Shown: positions 204 through 5,554 of the stretch, piece by piece
How the letters are laid out: each line of letters begins with the position of its first letter
Numbering within the stretch: the first letter of the stretch is position 1
Origin: Lachnospiraceae bacterium
GTDB taxonomy: Bacteria; Bacillota_A; Clostridia; Lachnospirales; Lachnospiraceae
Length of the DNA: 5,892 bases
Direction of reading: 5' to 3'
Assembly: GCA_017390645.1 (NCBI GenBank)
Contig: JAFPAZ010000028.1
Coordinates: 1-5,892, forward strand
Notes under the pieces: generated by a model
What the model was told of the DNA's origin: nothing
Database searches by the model: none
The model's input: only the letters and a program-made list of their open reading frames with translations
Program-made: the position numbers and the translations under genes

Positions 204-228
204 AGTCAAAGACATTTGATGAAGAAAA

Positions 229-234
229 GAGAGG
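229..234 (+). promoter_or_regulatory. rnfC ribosome binding site (decides the start)
   Basis: GAGAGG lies 8 nt upstream of ATG 243. Longer in-frame starts exist at TTG 216 and ATG 219, but they have no Shine-Dalgarno-like sequence before them. They would add only a charged leader (MKKREVRE) absent from typical RnfC N-termini. The ATG at 243 gives MSKITFQGGIHP, which matches the usual family start. Confidence 0.7.
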
Positions 235-242
235 TTAGGGAA

Positions 243-1559
243 ATGAGTAAGATTACGTTTCAAGGTGGAATTCACCCTTATGAAGGAAAAGAATTAACCG
301 AAGACAAGGAAATACAACCAATATTACCAACATCGGATTTAGTATATCCTTTAAGTCAGCATATTGGTGCACCTGCAACCCCGGTTGTAAAAAAAGGAGA
401 TTCGGTTTTAGTCGGTCAATTGATTGCACAGGCAGGTGGTTTTGTGTCTGCCAATATTCATTCAAGTGTTTCCGGTACTGTAAAGTGTATTGAACCTAGA
501 ATGACAACAAACGGTGTAAAAGTTAATTCTATTGTGATTGAAAATGATGAGGAATATCGAGAGATGGAAGCTACTCCTATCTTAGATGATGAAAAACTTA
601 CCAAAGAAGTGATACGGGCAAAGATTAAAGATGCCGGTATTGTTGGTATGGGTGGTGCGGGATTTCCAACCCATGTTAAGCTTACTCCTCAAAATGATGA
701 TGAAATTGATTATGTGATTGTGAACTGCGCAGAATGCGAGCCATATATTACATCTGATTATAGAAGAATGATAGAAGAACCCGAGAAATTAGTAGAAGGT
801 TTAAAGATTATTTTGAAACTGTTTAAAAATGCCAAAGGTATTCTTGCAGTTGAGGATAATAAGCCGAAGGCAATAAAAGTGCTGAAAGACTTAGTAGAAG
901 GTGAGGAACGGATTACGGTACAAACCTTAAAAACAAAGTATCCTCAAGGTGCAGAAAGACAGTTGATTTATGTAATAACAGGAATAAAAATTGATTCTTC
1001 CATGCTTCCGGCTCACGCAGGATGTGTTGTAAATAATGTGGATACTGTAATAAATGTATATCGTGCGATTCGTGAAGGGAAACCGTTAACAGAAAGAGTT
1101 GTTACCGTAACTGGAGATGCCGTGAAGGAACCAGGTAACTTTCTGGTAAAATTAGGGACGAATTGTGAAGAGTTGATTGAGGCAGCAGGCGGTTTTAATT
1201 GTGAACCAGAAAAAATAATTGCAGGCGGTCCTATGATGGGTAAAGCTATATCTAACATCAAGATTCCATCGGTGAAGGGATTATCTGCCCTTTTAGCCTT
1301 TAAGGTGGATGAGGTTGCAAAGTGTGAACCATCGAATTGCATTCGCTGTGGTCGTTGTATTACTGTCTGCCCTGGAAGAGTGGTGCCATCATTACTTGCA
1401 AAAATTGCAGAACAAGGAGATGAGGAAGCCTTTGTTGCAAATCATGGAATGGAGTGTTGCGAATGTGGATGCTGTTCCTTTGTATGTCCTGCTAAGAAGC
1501 CATTAACCCAGGTAATCGCAGGAACCAGAAAACAAGTTTTAGCAAATCGGAAGAAGTAA
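243..1559 (+). CDS. rnfC: RnfC, NADH/FMN-binding Fe-S subunit of the Rnf complex
   Basis: RnfC is the peripheral cytoplasmic subunit where NAD+ is reduced, or NADH oxidised, in the Rnf ion pump. The 438-residue product begins with the family signature GGIHP and has a barrel-sandwich region with HSSVSGTV (residues 73-80). It carries the glycine-rich FMN/NADH loop GMGGAGFP (135-142) and the conserved NCAECEP motif (161-167). Near the C-terminus are two CxxCxxCxxxCP clusters, Cys366/369/372/376 and Cys405/408/411/415, each expected to hold one [4Fe-4S] centre. The length fits the shorter clostridial RnfC type; the long repeat tail seen in some proteobacterial RnfC proteins is absent. It is the first gene of the operon, ends with TAA, and is followed 13 nt later by the RnfD-RnfG gene. 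Extra cysteines at 361, 406 and 410 flank the clusters. Identification is secure. Confidence 0.97.
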   Translation: MSKITFQGGIHPYEGKELTEDKEIQPILPTSDLVYPLSQHIGAPATPVVKKGDSVLVGQLIAQAGGFVSANIHSSVSGTVKCIEPRMTTNGVKVNSIVIENDEEYREMEATPILDDEKLTKEVIRAKIKDAGIVGMGGAGFPTHVKLTPQNDDEIDYVIVNCAECEPYITSDYRRMIEEPEKLVEGLKIILKLFKNAKGILAVEDNKPKAIKVLKDLVEGEERITVQTLKTKYPQGAERQLIYVITGIKIDSSMLPAHAGCVVNNVDTVINVYRAIREGKPLTERVVTVTGDAVKEPGNFLVKLGTNCEELIEAAGGFNCEPEKIIAGGPMMGKAISNIKIPSVKGLSALLAFKVDEVAKCEPSNCIRCGRCITVCPGRVVPSLLAKIAEQGDEEAFVANHGMECCECGCCSFVCPAKKPLTQVIAGTRKQVLANRKK

Positions 1560-1572
1560 AGGAGAAGAAGTT

Positions 1573-3147
1573 GTGACTGGATTATTAAATGTATCTGCTT
1601 CACCTCATGTGAGGGATAAAAAAACTACTACCGGTATTATGCTGGATGTGATTATTGCATTATTACCGGCTACCATCGTTGGTATTATTAACTTTAAATT
1701 AGATGCGCTGATTATTATTTTGTTATGTATTGCTACCTGTGTGTTTACAGAAGGAATTTTTCAAAAAATCACGAAAAGAAAATATACTATGACAGATTTA
1801 AGCGCTGTGGTAACAGGTTTGCTCTTAGCACTGAATTTACCAAGTACGGTACCATTTTACATACCTATTTTGGGAAGTGTTTTTGCTATTCTTGTAGTGA
1901 AACAATTTTTTGGTGGGATTGGTCAGAATTTTATGAATCCTGCATTAGCTGCGAGATGCTTTCTGGTTATTTCCTTTACAGGAAAAATGACAGACTTTAC
2001 ATATGATGCTGTGTCCGGTCCGACACCATTGGCATTGTTAAAGAGCGGAGAATCCGTAGATATACCGAATATGTTCTTAGGAACTACAGCAGGAACCATC
2101 GGTGAAACTTCTGCTTTGGCTTTGTTAATAGGTGGAATCTATTTGTTGATTCGTGGGATTATCAGTTATCGCATTCCTTTCTTTTATATTGCAACCGTAG
2201 CTGTTTATGCGGCTATTTATTCCGTAACATCTTTAGGCGGATTTTCCTTAGAATATATTGCAGGTCATTTGTTTGGTGGTGGCTTAATGATAGGAGCAAT
2301 TTTTATGGCAACGGATTATGTTACATCACCGGTAACTCCAAAAGGCCAGATTGTATTTGGTATCTTTTTGGGTCTGTTGACAGCAACCTTCCGTATTTTT
2401 GGTGGAAGCGCAGAAGGTGTTTCTTATGCTATTATTTTAGGTAATTTATTAGTTCCTATGATTGAAAAATTTACTATGCCGAAACCTTTTGGTCCATCCA
2501 AAAAAGAAAAGGCACAAAAAGAAACAAAAGAAAAGAATGAAGTTATTCCTAATACAATAAAGTTATTCCTGATTACTTTGGTATCTGGTGCTTTACTTGG
2601 ATTGGTTTATGTTGTTACTGAGAAGCCGATTTCGGAACAAAATAAAAAGAAACAGCAAGAGGCCTATAAGAGTGTATTTGAAGTTGCTGAATCCTTTGAA
2701 GAGTTAGCAGGTTTTGAAAAAGAAGAAGCTGGAAAGATTTTGGAAACAGGTGGATTTAAAGGTTCCGACATTTCTGGGGTAGTAATTGCCAAGGATTCCA
2801 ATGGTGAAATGTTAGGATATGTTGTTACAGCAGTTTCACATGAAGGATATGGTGGAGATATTGAATTTTCTGTCGGCATAACCAAGGACGGAACAGTAAA
2901 TGGGATTGAATTTTTATCTATTGGTGAAACTGCAGGTCTTGGTATGAATGCTACCAAGGATGAGTTTAAATCACAATTTACAGGAAAACAGGTTTCTGCC
3001 TTTGTCAGCACGAAAAATGGGGTAAAAGCAGAAAATGAGATTGATGCTTTAACTGGGGCAACGATTACAACCAATGCGGTGACAGGGACTGTGAATGCTG
3101 CGATATATTATTGTGATTATTTAGAAGGAGGTACAGGTAATGAGTAA
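1573..3147 (+). CDS. rnfD-rnfG: RnfD-RnfG fusion protein, flavin-carrying membrane subunits of the Rnf complex
   Basis: This single 524-codon frame encodes two Rnf subunits that are normally separate. Residues 1-307 are RnfD, a multi-helix membrane protein starting MTGLLNVSASPHVRD. It has the motifs DLSAVVTGLLLALNLP and GGIGQNFMNPALAARCFL, and a flavinylation-like site D145-x-x-S-G-P-T151. Residues 308-324 are a lysine/glutamate-rich linker. Residues 325-524 are RnfG: one membrane helix (about 329-350), then an FMN-binding domain with D491-A-L-T-G-A-T497, the ApbE-type site where FMN is esterified to the threonine. No stop codon or in-frame ATG occurs at the junction, and no Shine-Dalgarno sequence was found there. 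The start is GTG, with AAAGGAG (1558-1564) 8 nt upstream overlapping the rnfC stop. The last 8 nt overlap rnfE. In the complex, RnfG receives electrons on the outer face and RnfD passes them inward toward RnfC. The family assignment of both halves is firm; the fusion is seen directly. Confidence 0.95.
   Translation: MTGLLNVSASPHVRDKKTTTGIMLDVIIALLPATIVGIINFKLDALIIILLCIATCVFTEGIFQKITKRKYTMTDLSAVVTGLLLALNLPSTVPFYIPILGSVFAILVVKQFFGGIGQNFMNPALAARCFLVISFTGKMTDFTYDAVSGPTPLALLKSGESVDIPNMFLGTTAGTIGETSALALLIGGIYLLIRGIISYRIPFFYIATVAVYAAIYSVTSLGGFSLEYIAGHLFGGGLMIGAIFMATDYVTSPVTPKGQIVFGIFLGLLTATFRIFGGSAEGVSYAIILGNLLVPMIEKFTMPKPFGPSKKEKAQKETKEKNEVIPNTIKLFLITLVSGALLGLVYVVTEKPISEQNKKKQQEAYKSVFEVAESFEELAGFEKEEAGKILETGGFKGSDISGVVIAKDSNGEMLGYVVTAVSHEGYGGDIEFSVGITKDGTVNGIEFLSIGETAGLGMNATKDEFKSQFTGKQVSAFVSTKNGVKAENEIDALTGATITTNAVTGTVNAAIYYCDYLEGGTGNE
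2494..2544 (+). other. Linker joining RnfD and RnfG
   Basis: This segment encodes residues 308-324 of the fused protein. It is low-complexity and charged, with KKEKAQKETKEK at its core, and joins the end of the RnfD fold (the PKPFG region) to the RnfG membrane helix. The nearby ATG at 2537 is out of frame. The nearest in-frame ATG upstream (2476) has no Shine-Dalgarno sequence, so a separately initiated RnfG is not supported. The high lysine content agrees with a cytoplasmic location under the positive-inside rule, which suits the expected cytoplasmic C-terminus of RnfD and N-terminus of RnfG. Confidence 0.8.
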
Positions 3148-3832
3148 ATGTCTGGAACGTGTATACAATGGTATCATTAAAGAGAATCCGACCTTTGTAC
3201 TTATGCTAGGTATGTGCCCTACCATGGCGGTAACCAGTTCTGCAATTAACGGTTTAGGTATGGGACTTACTACAACAGCAGTATTGATTTTATCCAATAT
3301 GCTTATTTCTTTGTTGAGAAAGGTAATTCCAGATAAAGTCAGAATTCCTGGGTTTATCGTTGTTGTAGCCTCTGTTGTTACTATTATTCAATTTTTGTTA
3401 GAAGCTTTTATTCCTAGTCTTTATGAGAGTTTAGGATTATATATTCCACTTATTGTTGTTAACTGTATTATTCTTGGACGTGCGGAAGCTTATGCGTCCA
3501 AAAATCCGGTTTTACCTTCTGCCTTCGATGGATTGGGAATGGGACTTGGATTTACGGTTGGATTGACAGCAATTGCGATTTTTAGGGAAATCATTGGTAG
3601 TGGAACCATTTTTGGAACACAGATTATGCCGGAAAGCTATGAACCGGTTAGTATTTTTGTTTTAGCACCGGGTGCGTTCTTTGTGCTTGCTGCATTGGTT
3701 GCGGTTCAAAATCAGGTTAAGATAAACAAAGCAAAGGCGAAGGGTGAAAAACCAGAATTAGAAAGTGGTTGTGGCAGTGATTGTGGCCATTGTGGAAACA
3801 GTTCTTGTGGAACAAGAAATGACAATTCATAA
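3140..3832 (+). CDS. rnfE: RnfE, integral membrane subunit of the Rnf complex
   Basis: RnfE is a polytopic membrane protein that pairs pseudo-symmetrically with RnfA. The pair holds an Fe-S centre within the membrane and is tied to ion translocation. The 230-residue product shows the family features: KENPTFVLMLGMCP with Cys26, and IPLIVVNC with Cys109. These are the conserved half-helix cysteines that, with their RnfA counterparts, ligate the intramembrane cluster. The LGMGL and GLGMGLGFTVGLT segments and the FREIIGSGTIFG motif are also typical. ATG 3140 is preceded by a near-perfect AGAAGGAGG (3123-3131) and overlaps the end of the RnfD-RnfG gene by 8 nt, implying coupled translation. After the last helix comes a soluble tail of about 35 residues ending in a cysteine cluster (Cys211/215/218/223), an addition to the core fold. 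Confidence 0.96.
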   Translation: MSKCLERVYNGIIKENPTFVLMLGMCPTMAVTSSAINGLGMGLTTTAVLILSNMLISLLRKVIPDKVRIPGFIVVVASVVTIIQFLLEAFIPSLYESLGLYIPLIVVNCIILGRAEAYASKNPVLPSAFDGLGMGLGFTVGLTAIAIFREIIGSGTIFGTQIMPESYEPVSIFVLAPGAFFVLAALVAVQNQVKINKAKAKGEKPELESGCGSDCGHCGNSSCGTRNDNS

Positions 3833-3847
3833 AAAGGAGAATGCGAA

Positions 3848-4423
3848 ATGAAAGATTTAATTATCATTTTTATTGGAGCCGCGTTAGTAAATAACGTTGT
3901 ATTAAGCCAGTTCCTTGGACTTTGTCCTTTCTTGGGTGTATCTAAAAAGACAGATACTGCTTTGGGCATGGGAACTGCGGTAATTTTTGTTATTACAATA
4001 TCCTCGTTTTTTACTAGTTTAATTTATAATTATTTGCTAGTACCTTTGGATTTGGAATATCTTCAAACGATTGTATTCATTTTGGTAATTGCCGCTTTGG
4101 TGCAATTTGTGGAAATGTTCTTAAAAAAATCCATTCCGTCATTGTACGATTCTTTAGGCGTCTATCTTCCTTTGATTACAACAAACTGTGCTGTGTTAGG
4201 TGTTGCAATTATTAATGTGCAAAAGTCGTATGGTGTATTAGAAAGTGTAGTGAATGGATTCTCTACAGCATTTGGTTTTACGATTTCAATCGTGATTTTA
4301 GCCGGTATCCGTGAAAGAATTGAATACAATGATATTCCGGAATGTTTAAAGGGAACCCCGATTACATTAATCTGTGCAGGATTGATGTCTATTGCATTCT
4401 TTGGATTTTCAGGTCTGATTTAG
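3848..4423 (+). CDS. rnfA: RnfA, integral membrane subunit of the Rnf complex
   Basis: RnfA is the membrane partner of RnfE and lies in the electron path between RnfB and RnfG. The 191-residue product is the normal family length and consists of about six hydrophobic helices. It carries the paired conserved motifs LVNNVVLSQFLGLCPFLGVS with Cys26, and LPLITTNCAVLG with Cys114. These match the cysteines that hold the intramembrane Fe-S centre together with Cys26 and Cys109 of RnfE. The start ATG is preceded by AAGGAG (3834-3839) with 8-nt spacing. An out-of-frame ATG at 3841 lies nearer the Shine-Dalgarno sequence and is not the start. The gene lies 15 nt after rnfE, and its TAG stop overlaps the ribosome binding site of rnfB. 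Confidence 0.97.
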   Translation: MKDLIIIFIGAALVNNVVLSQFLGLCPFLGVSKKTDTALGMGTAVIFVITISSFFTSLIYNYLLVPLDLEYLQTIVFILVIAALVQFVEMFLKKSIPSLYDSLGVYLPLITTNCAVLGVAIINVQKSYGVLESVVNGFSTAFGFTISIVILAGIRERIEYNDIPECLKGTPITLICAGLMSIAFFGFSGLI

Positions 4424-4436
4424 GAGGAATGAAAAG

Positions 4437-5231
4437 ATGACAAGTGTATTGATTGCAACAGCAGTGGTTGCCATAACCGGTATCATTATCGGTATCTTTT
4501 TAGGTGCTGCTGGCGAAAAATTTAAGGTAGAAGTGAATGAAAAGGAATTGCTGGTTCGTGAAGAATTGCCTGGAAACAATTGTGGTGGTTGTGGATTTGC
4601 CGGTTGTGATGCGTTGGCAAAAGCAATTGCAGAGGGAACAGCTCCGGTAAATGGATGTCCGGTTGGCGGAGATACGGTTGCGCAAAAAATTGCAAAAATA
4701 ATGGGAGAAACTGTAAAAAGCGGTGCAAAACCATATGCTTTTGTAAAATGCTCCGGTAATTGCGAAAAGGCGAAAGAAAGATATAGGTATGTTGGTCCAA
4801 AAGACTGTAAAGCGACCATGAATACTCCTGGAAACGGACCAAAAGCATGTAGCTTTGGTTGTACCGGCTTTGGAAGCTGTAAAGCGGTTTGCGAATTTGG
4901 AGCCATTGAAATCGTAAATGGAATTGCTGTTATTGATAAAGAAAAATGTAAGGCGTGTGGTAAATGTGTTGCAGAATGCCCAAAACACCTAATTGAAATT
5001 GTGCCGGGAGATACTCCTTATATGGTAGCATGTAATTCGCAGGATAAAGGAAAAGAGGTAAAAGAAGTATGTTCAGCGGGCTGTATTGGTTGCAGTTTGT
5101 GTGAAAAAAACTGTCCTGCAGAAGCTATTACCATGCAGGGGAATGTTGCAAAAATAGATCCTGATCAGTGTGTAGGATGTAGAATATGTGCTGAAAAATG
5201 TCCTGTGAAAGTAATTAAAGAATTAAGTTAA
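4437..5231 (+). CDS. rnfB: RnfB, multi-cluster ferredoxin-oxidising subunit of the Rnf complex
   Basis: RnfB is the electron entry subunit, membrane-anchored and facing the cytoplasm, and it accepts electrons from reduced ferredoxin. The 264-residue product has an N-terminal anchor helix (about 3-24). A four-cysteine Fe-S domain follows (Cys49/52/57/74, NNCGGCGFAGC...NGCPVGG). Next is a cysteine-rich middle region (Cys105, 109, 124, 138, 142, 148, 152) and three CxxCxxCxxxCP clusters at Cys171/174/177/181, 216/219/222/226 and 245/248/251/255. The 25 cysteines allow at least five [4Fe-4S] clusters, possibly six. This is the long clostridial form, richer in clusters than the shorter proteobacterial RnfB. 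AGGAGG (4422-4427) overlaps the rnfA stop and sits 9 nt before the ATG. It is the last gene of the rnf operon; no strong terminator follows it. Confidence 0.97.
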   Translation: MTSVLIATAVVAITGIIIGIFLGAAGEKFKVEVNEKELLVREELPGNNCGGCGFAGCDALAKAIAEGTAPVNGCPVGGDTVAQKIAKIMGETVKSGAKPYAFVKCSGNCEKAKERYRYVGPKDCKATMNTPGNGPKACSFGCTGFGSCKAVCEFGAIEIVNGIAVIDKEKCKACGKCVAECPKHLIEIVPGDTPYMVACNSQDKGKEVKEVCSAGCIGCSLCEKNCPAEAITMQGNVAKIDPDQCVGCRICAEKCPVKVIKELS

Positions 5232-5244
5232 TATAGTTGCGGCG

Positions 5245-5300
5245 AACGCATATCTTACATATTGTTATATTAATAGCATAAATGAGGTAAGATATGCGTT
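5245..5300 (+). promoter_or_regulatory. Perfect 14-bp inverted repeat covering the ylmC/ymxH start codon
   Basis: AACGCATATCTTAC (5245-5258) is exactly the reverse complement of GTAAGATATGCGTT (5287-5300), with 28 bp between. In the mRNA the arms would form a 14-bp stem. The right arm contains the ATG at 5294-5296 and the last base of the GAGG ribosome binding site (5284-5287), so folding would hide the start codon and crowd the ribosome binding site. In DNA it could instead be a protein-binding palindrome. The spacer is AT-rich and contains the palindrome TATTAATA (5268-5275). Only a short T run (5299-5302) follows, so it is a poor intrinsic terminator. The repeat is certain; its role is inference. 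Confidence 0.6.
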
Positions 5301-5554
5301 TTAGTGAATTAAGAGAAAAAGAAGTAATAAATTGTAATGATGGAATGAGATTGGGGTTTGTTGTGGATGCAGAAATTGATATCTGCAATGGTAAAATAGT
5401 TTCCCTGATTGTTCCGGAGGCTACAAAATTTTTTGGTTGTTTTGGATGTAGTAAAGAATTTGTGATTCCGTTTTGTGATGTGGTAAAAATCGGTACGGAT
5501 ATTATTTTGGTAGATGTAAAGTGTGAAAAAATATTGAAGAGTTGCAAAGATTAG
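5294..5554 (+). CDS. YlmC/YmxH-family sporulation-associated PRC-barrel protein
   Basis: This 86-residue protein begins MRFSELREKEVINCNDG, then MRLGFVVDAEID, then GKIVSLIVP. It matches the small PRC-barrel-like YlmC/YmxH family of endospore-forming Firmicutes, whose molecular function is poorly defined. No transmembrane helix or signal peptide is visible, so it is probably cytoplasmic. Cysteines occur at C14, C31, C49, C52, C61, C77 and C84; the GCFGC pair (residues 48-52) is the most conspicuous, although no known metal site is claimed. ATG 5294 is preceded by GAGG (5284-5287) with 6-nt spacing. The gene lies 62 nt after rnfB and 88 nt before nrdR, so it may be read through from rnf or have its own promoter. 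The start codon lies within a perfect inverted repeat. Confidence 0.85.
   Translation: MRFSELREKEVINCNDGMRLGFVVDAEIDICNGKIVSLIVPEATKFFGCFGCSKEFVIPFCDVVKIGTDIILVDVKCEKILKSCKD

Follow-up and report, generated by a model that had tools for sequence, protein, structure and literature searches.

The Rnf complex is a ferredoxin:NAD+ oxidoreductase and an ion pump, and the solved Rnf complexes contain one RnfD and one RnfG. In the structures from Clostridium tetanomorphum (7zc6) and Acetobacterium woodii (9eri), these two subunits are separate chains. As far as the excerpted text of the structural reports goes, both RnfD arms of the C. tetanomorphum complex reach the cytoplasm, with the C-terminal arm lying on RnfC (PMC9588780), while in A. 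woodii RnfG is extracytoplasmic, hangs on one membrane stalk, and has no more than minor contact with RnfD, in which the cofactor residues are numbered T156, N123, and D249; the same excerpts describe conformational gating of FMN(G) and RnfG motion in models of the pump cycle (PMC11889175). Homologous domains occur in NqrB and NqrC of Na+-NQR, again as separate chains. An NqrB/RnfD-like membrane domain that is also fused to a partner is found in the two-subunit NQR/RNF-like systems; there, in the available portions of the papers, the membrane domain is joined to a cytosolic NAD-binding domain (PF00175), a separate subunit holds the FMN domain, and the threonine that bears covalent FMN in NqrB/RnfD is absent (PMC8238504, PMC11334425). 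Here, we describe a locus on a stretch of 5,892 nucleotides (the window) in which RnfD and RnfG form one chain with a 23-residue junction, very probably a subunit joining RnfD and RnfG within an Rnf complex that is ordinary in other respects, from a Lachnospiraceae-like bacterium.

The fusion gene (1573..3147, forward strand) starts at a GTG with good Shine-Dalgarno pairing (-8.8 kcal/mol) and encodes 524 aa in an open frame without an internal stop. Its RnfD part (residues 1-307; 1573..2493, forward strand) matches PF03116 and TIGR01946 and aligns to 7zc6_D and 9eri_D, and its RnfG part (residues 331-524, from the membrane helix on; 2563..3144, forward strand) matches PF04205 and TIGR01947; between them, the junction (residues 308-330; 2494..2562, forward strand) ends at the RnfG membrane helix and is predicted by homology to be cytoplasmic. 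The Pfam matches in this chain are NQR2_RnfD_RnfE at 7-307 and FMN_bind at 425-511, and the NCBIfam models give 293.5 bits for rnfD (residues 10-307; cut-off 207.05) and 111.2 bits for rnfG (residues 329-514; cut-off 102). With both NCBIfam cut-offs exceeded in a single frame, the original prediction of RnfD and RnfG in one 524-residue protein holds, and the gene is confirmed as a genuine D-G fusion. The same is true of the earlier claim that the junction has no usable internal start: the sole in-frame ATG/GTG/TTG in the junction interval, ATG 2476 (M302), lies inside the conserved end of RnfD and lacks Shine-Dalgarno pairing (+0.4). The two parts resemble those of 7zc6 and 9eri in domains, sequence, fold, and flavin threonines, and are less similar to NqrB and NqrC, for which the model matches are weaker and fall below the NQR cut-offs. 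An Na+-NQR identity was rejected, as the RnfC and RnfB models score above cut-off and the NqrA model below its own. We treat the one-chain D-G arrangement as a variant of Rnf, the number of chains not defining the enzyme.

The linker proper (residues 308-324) comprises 17 residues, among which a visual count gives 6 Lys and 4 Glu (net +2); it is thus lysine-rich, as had been proposed, and its charge is mixed rather than strongly basic. Because the RnfD arms are cytoplasmic and RnfG has a single stalk, a cytoplasmic D-to-G linker is topologically allowed, and the cytoplasmic placement proposed for the RnfD C-terminus and the RnfG N-terminus is compatible with the excerpted reports on both structures (PMC9588780; PMC11889175), the cytoplasmic arms of C. 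tetanomorphum RnfD agreeing with the side predicted for the linker. Two benefits ascribed to the fusion by the original prediction fared less well. A fixed 1:1 stoichiometry already obtains without fusion, as is generally known from the solved complexes. That the tether keeps the two flavins adjacent is not supported, as it lies on the cytoplasmic face, both covalent FMNs face outside, and the contacts between RnfG and RnfD are described as minor in A. woodii. By homology, the RnfD part would form ten helices with both ends cytoplasmic, carrying FMN on Thr151 as well as riboflavin, and its C-terminal arm would run on in the cytoplasm as the lysine-rich linker and then become the stalk helix of RnfG, which would cross outward and bear the FMN domain (Thr497). 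We infer that the subunit would be flavinylated and assembled into a pumping complex in which electrons pass, like in known Rnf, from RnfB to the RnfA/E iron-sulfur centre, FMN(G), FMN(D), riboflavin, and finally RnfC; the fusion would couple the synthesis and location of D and G, and the catalytic path need not change. An AlphaFold2 model of the D-G chain alone (pLDDT 76.5, pTM 0.62, linker about 50-69) was matched by Foldseek to 7zc6_D, 9eri_D, 9eri_G, and 7zc6_G and draws a single helix over residues 310-368, with low confidence over the linker; with the partner subunits absent from the model, it is uninformative for the placement of D relative to G.

The gene sits in an operon ordered rnfC, rnfD-rnfG fusion, rnfE, rnfA, and rnfB, all on the forward strand, and the window encodes each of the six parts of Rnf (C, D, G, E, A, and B) above its curated cut-off. 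Upstream lies rnfC (216..1559; TIGR01945, 506.8 bits), which encodes 447 aa from the listed TTG 216; ATG 243 is the likelier true start, with Shine-Dalgarno pairing of -8.7 compared with -1.1 for the TTG. Downstream are rnfE (3140..3832; 230 aa; TIGR01948, 261 bits; Shine-Dalgarno pairing -13.5), whose ATG falls within the final 8 bases of the fusion gene, rnfA (3848..4423; 191 aa; TIGR01943, 270.5 bits), and rnfB (4437..5231; 264 aa; TIGR01944, 93 bits, cut-off 68.7), which encodes a polyferredoxin. A YlmC/YmxH-type sporulation gene (5294-5554) follows rnfB, and after it comes the beginning of nrdR (from 5643). The order C, DG, E, A, B recurs in 22 of 23 fused loci, the window included, of which L002 and L198 represent one genome place; rnfC is split into two pieces in L177, and no B was seen on the 5 kb contig of L001. 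RnfE carries a Cys-rich C-terminal tail (3740-3832) whose match to FeoB_associated is below cut-off, and at least four Cys occur in the last 45 RnfE residues at 18/21 fused and 44/60 separate loci.

The original prediction had left open whether this fusion is catalogued elsewhere and had suggested searching for single chains with both RnfD and RnfG domains. A protein search of 5.8 billion sequences left 7996 scored candidates, and the best 120 of these, at identities from 99% downward, carry PF03116 and PF04205 on one chain in 120/120 cases, a listing that is biased to fused chains (a two-domain match scores higher) and thus speaks for existence, not frequency. The fusion is therefore catalogued: JGI proteins named "D subunit/G subunit" (P0012, P0024, P0066, P0082, P0087, and P0111) carry the same kind of fusion under automatic naming only. 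An ORF test of 79 named-record loci plus the window gave 68 separate pairs, 8 without a G match, and 4 fused, the last including the window and L077, which this first test scored as fused but whose D is spread over two frames and looks frameshifted. Most named relatives are metagenome assemblies. A draw of 299 genomes from the family to which L002 belongs, recorded as Lachnospiraceae, gave a match in 264; ORFs were read at 78 loci in 77 of these, yielding 19 fused loci (18 genomes) and 59 separate ones, and as the 77 are the top of a score list favouring fused genes, 18/77 is not a frequency and 18/264 is a lower bound. Four additional fetched family genomes yielded D only. Ten loci that appeared fused by frame length alone (e.g., 533 aa, "1 TAA") were dropped once their ORFs showed stops between D and G. 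In the wider class, 183 of 245 genomes matched at E 1e-20, and among the matches listed, G358 aside, a D-G span without a stop was found only in G001 and G183, which also belong to the family draw. The D-G fusion is a minority state in related bacteria. For the tree and site counts, 128 of 159 sources served as rows (22 fused and 106 separate), the 31 dropped being L077, nine sources with D only, and 21 separate pairs in which the match to D or G was short.

The residues expected to bind flavins are conserved. The expected RnfD attachment residue, T151, aligns with T156 of A. woodii (position by eye), and N122 and D248, which would contact riboflavin, align with N123 and D249 (counted by eye); T151, N119, N122, and D248 are kept in 22/22 fused rows. 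In the RnfG part, the flavinylation motif reads TGAT at T497, the expected attachment Thr, which is kept in 121/121 among the matches listed (P0001-P0121). The general motif is given in the accessible part of one report as [S/T]GA[S/T], so that Ser is permitted (PMC8238504), and Ser replaces Thr at the RnfG site in 10/22 fused rows (L001, L114, L116, L174, L177, L178, L179, L180, L181, and L185, most in one lineage) and in 0/106 of the separate rows kept for the tree. Since three of the 21 dropped separate pairs (L043, L049, and L068) also have Ser, with the motif unreadable in a further three (L022, L036, and L062), the association between Ser and fusion is only partial, and it is confounded by descent. 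One fused row, L113, reads SGCT. The RnfD flavin motif of the window is SGPT, with Pro at residue 150 (2020-2022) where most sequences have Ala; this Pro is found in 2/22 fused, 13/93 overlapping-gene, and 0/13 in-frame rows. The flavin transferase ApbE scored above cut-off in 18/19 fused genomes, the one without a match (G133) perhaps being incomplete, and its presence is permissive rather than specific because 7/14 control genomes have it too.

A missed stop or an indel joining two genes during sequencing or assembly could mimic such a fusion, and L077, with D across two frames, looks like an instance of such an artefact. We consider this explanation exceedingly improbable for the window and reject it. 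In another assembly, from goat caecum (L002/L198), the fused frame recurs at equal length and 90% identity; its codons differ from those of the window at 161 synonymous and 54 non-synonymous sites (6 and 5 of them in the junction), and among the matches listed, five more database clusters, 82-99% identical, are likewise fused. The linkers of the closest database relatives are shorter yet in frame, by two residues in P0005 and by six in P0004, so that linker indels preserve the frame; in total, 22 fused loci were found, and the window has no internal ribosome-binding site. A genuinely fused gene might still yield two working subunits, either through internal initiation or through proteolysis of the linker. 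The junctions of the 22 fused loci, at 15 to 65 residues, may be exposed to protease, and at three of these loci (L116, L118, and L178) a junction start that pairs at -6.1 to -6.9 kcal/mol is kept. Pairing at the rnfG start of -5 kcal/mol or stronger is found, however, in 60/60 separate-gene loci (median -11.8) compared with 3/22 fused loci and none in the window, these figures being maxima (the best in the search interval for separate genes and the best in the junction for fused ones), and a need for two chains should have preserved the signal. Two-chain production thus appears distinctly unlikely, and because the rnfG ribosome-binding site is gone in the window and kept in all the separate loci, D-G is expected to be made as one polypeptide in the cell.

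As to how the single-chain subunit arose, rnfD and rnfG abut or overlap in separate relatives, and most likely the rnfD stop was lost (or the frame changed) between such neighbours and the rnfG ribosome-binding site disappeared as well. In nine fetched family loci (L159, L160, L161, L165, L167, L168, L169, L170, and L175) the two genes share a frame and are separated by one stop with a gap of 0, offering a plausible one-step route to fusion, and these pairs possibly represent a pre-fusion or post-fission state; L173 has a D/G stop plus another two codons on. A quick tree of 84 rows, with SH-aLRT as its only support measure, gave six state changes, three of which are forced by starred branches. 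In clade tests covering 65 of the 128 rows, with groups picked after the tree was seen, forcing the 22 fused rows into a single clade was 128.9 log units worse (AU p 0.003) and such a clade was rejected under those terms, while one clade was compatible for the window, L198, and five other fused rows (p 0.73, in a test that turned up a tree improving on the unconstrained quick tree by 20.6 log units) and for the remaining 15 (p 0.315). Judged from these alignments, the fused genes appear to form at least two clades, with two sufficing and parsimony allowing up to six, which we read as suggesting two or more fusion origins, although gain and loss are indistinguishable on this tree. A single ancient fusion, later split repeatedly in the separate-gene lineages, would agree with the fit of each fused subset to one clade and with change counts that do not separate gain from loss, and one gain with many losses survives even the rejection of the all-22 clade. 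That rejection nevertheless weighs against it, as do junctions that by eye look unrelated between groups and the prevalence of separate genes in the wider sample (68/80), and we regard it as unlikely. It is also rather improbable that the fusion is a natural tether, favoured by selection more than once, and the mark of a functional Rnf subclass, in which the RnfD C-terminal arm (on RnfC in C. tetanomorphum) would extend into the RnfG stalk and couple docking of the NADH module to the mobile RnfG flavin domain, with a Thr-to-Ser anchor in one lineage. The Ser found at three separate-gene loci makes such a subclass less likely, and the lack of junction conservation across groups favours a mere tether. 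Among the 22 fused loci, the junction has a positive net charge in 18, is neutral in 2, and is negative in 2. If the subclass were real, flavin loading or potential might differ in the Ser lineage, and the RnfD end would have to stay, at every pump step, within reach of the RnfG helix start over the shortest junctions (15 residues in L001, 16 in L164, and 11 in the database chain P0056), about 40-55 angstroms fully stretched.

For the single-chain subunit that we favour, normal pumping by a tethered Rnf would exclude large excursions of the RnfG stalk from RnfD, and the fused Rnf could provide a one-chain purification handle. No description of a D-G fusion was found in searches of open-access literature, most subscription papers being outside that scope, and where "rnfDG" (two papers) or "rnfD-rnfG" (one paper) occurs in the passages available, it is shorthand for two genes or an operon order. 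Surveys that count rnfD and rnfG individually may give wrong scores for some Lachnospiraceae; a genomic survey of butyrivibrios recorded every Rnf subunit as present, and a term search of its text found neither "fused" nor "fusion" (PMC4478896). More than one fused copy can occur in a genome: G002 (L001, L116, and L117), titled "uncultured Clostridiales", has a separate pair alongside two fused rnfDG genes, and G212 (L114 and L177) has two fused rnfDG copies.
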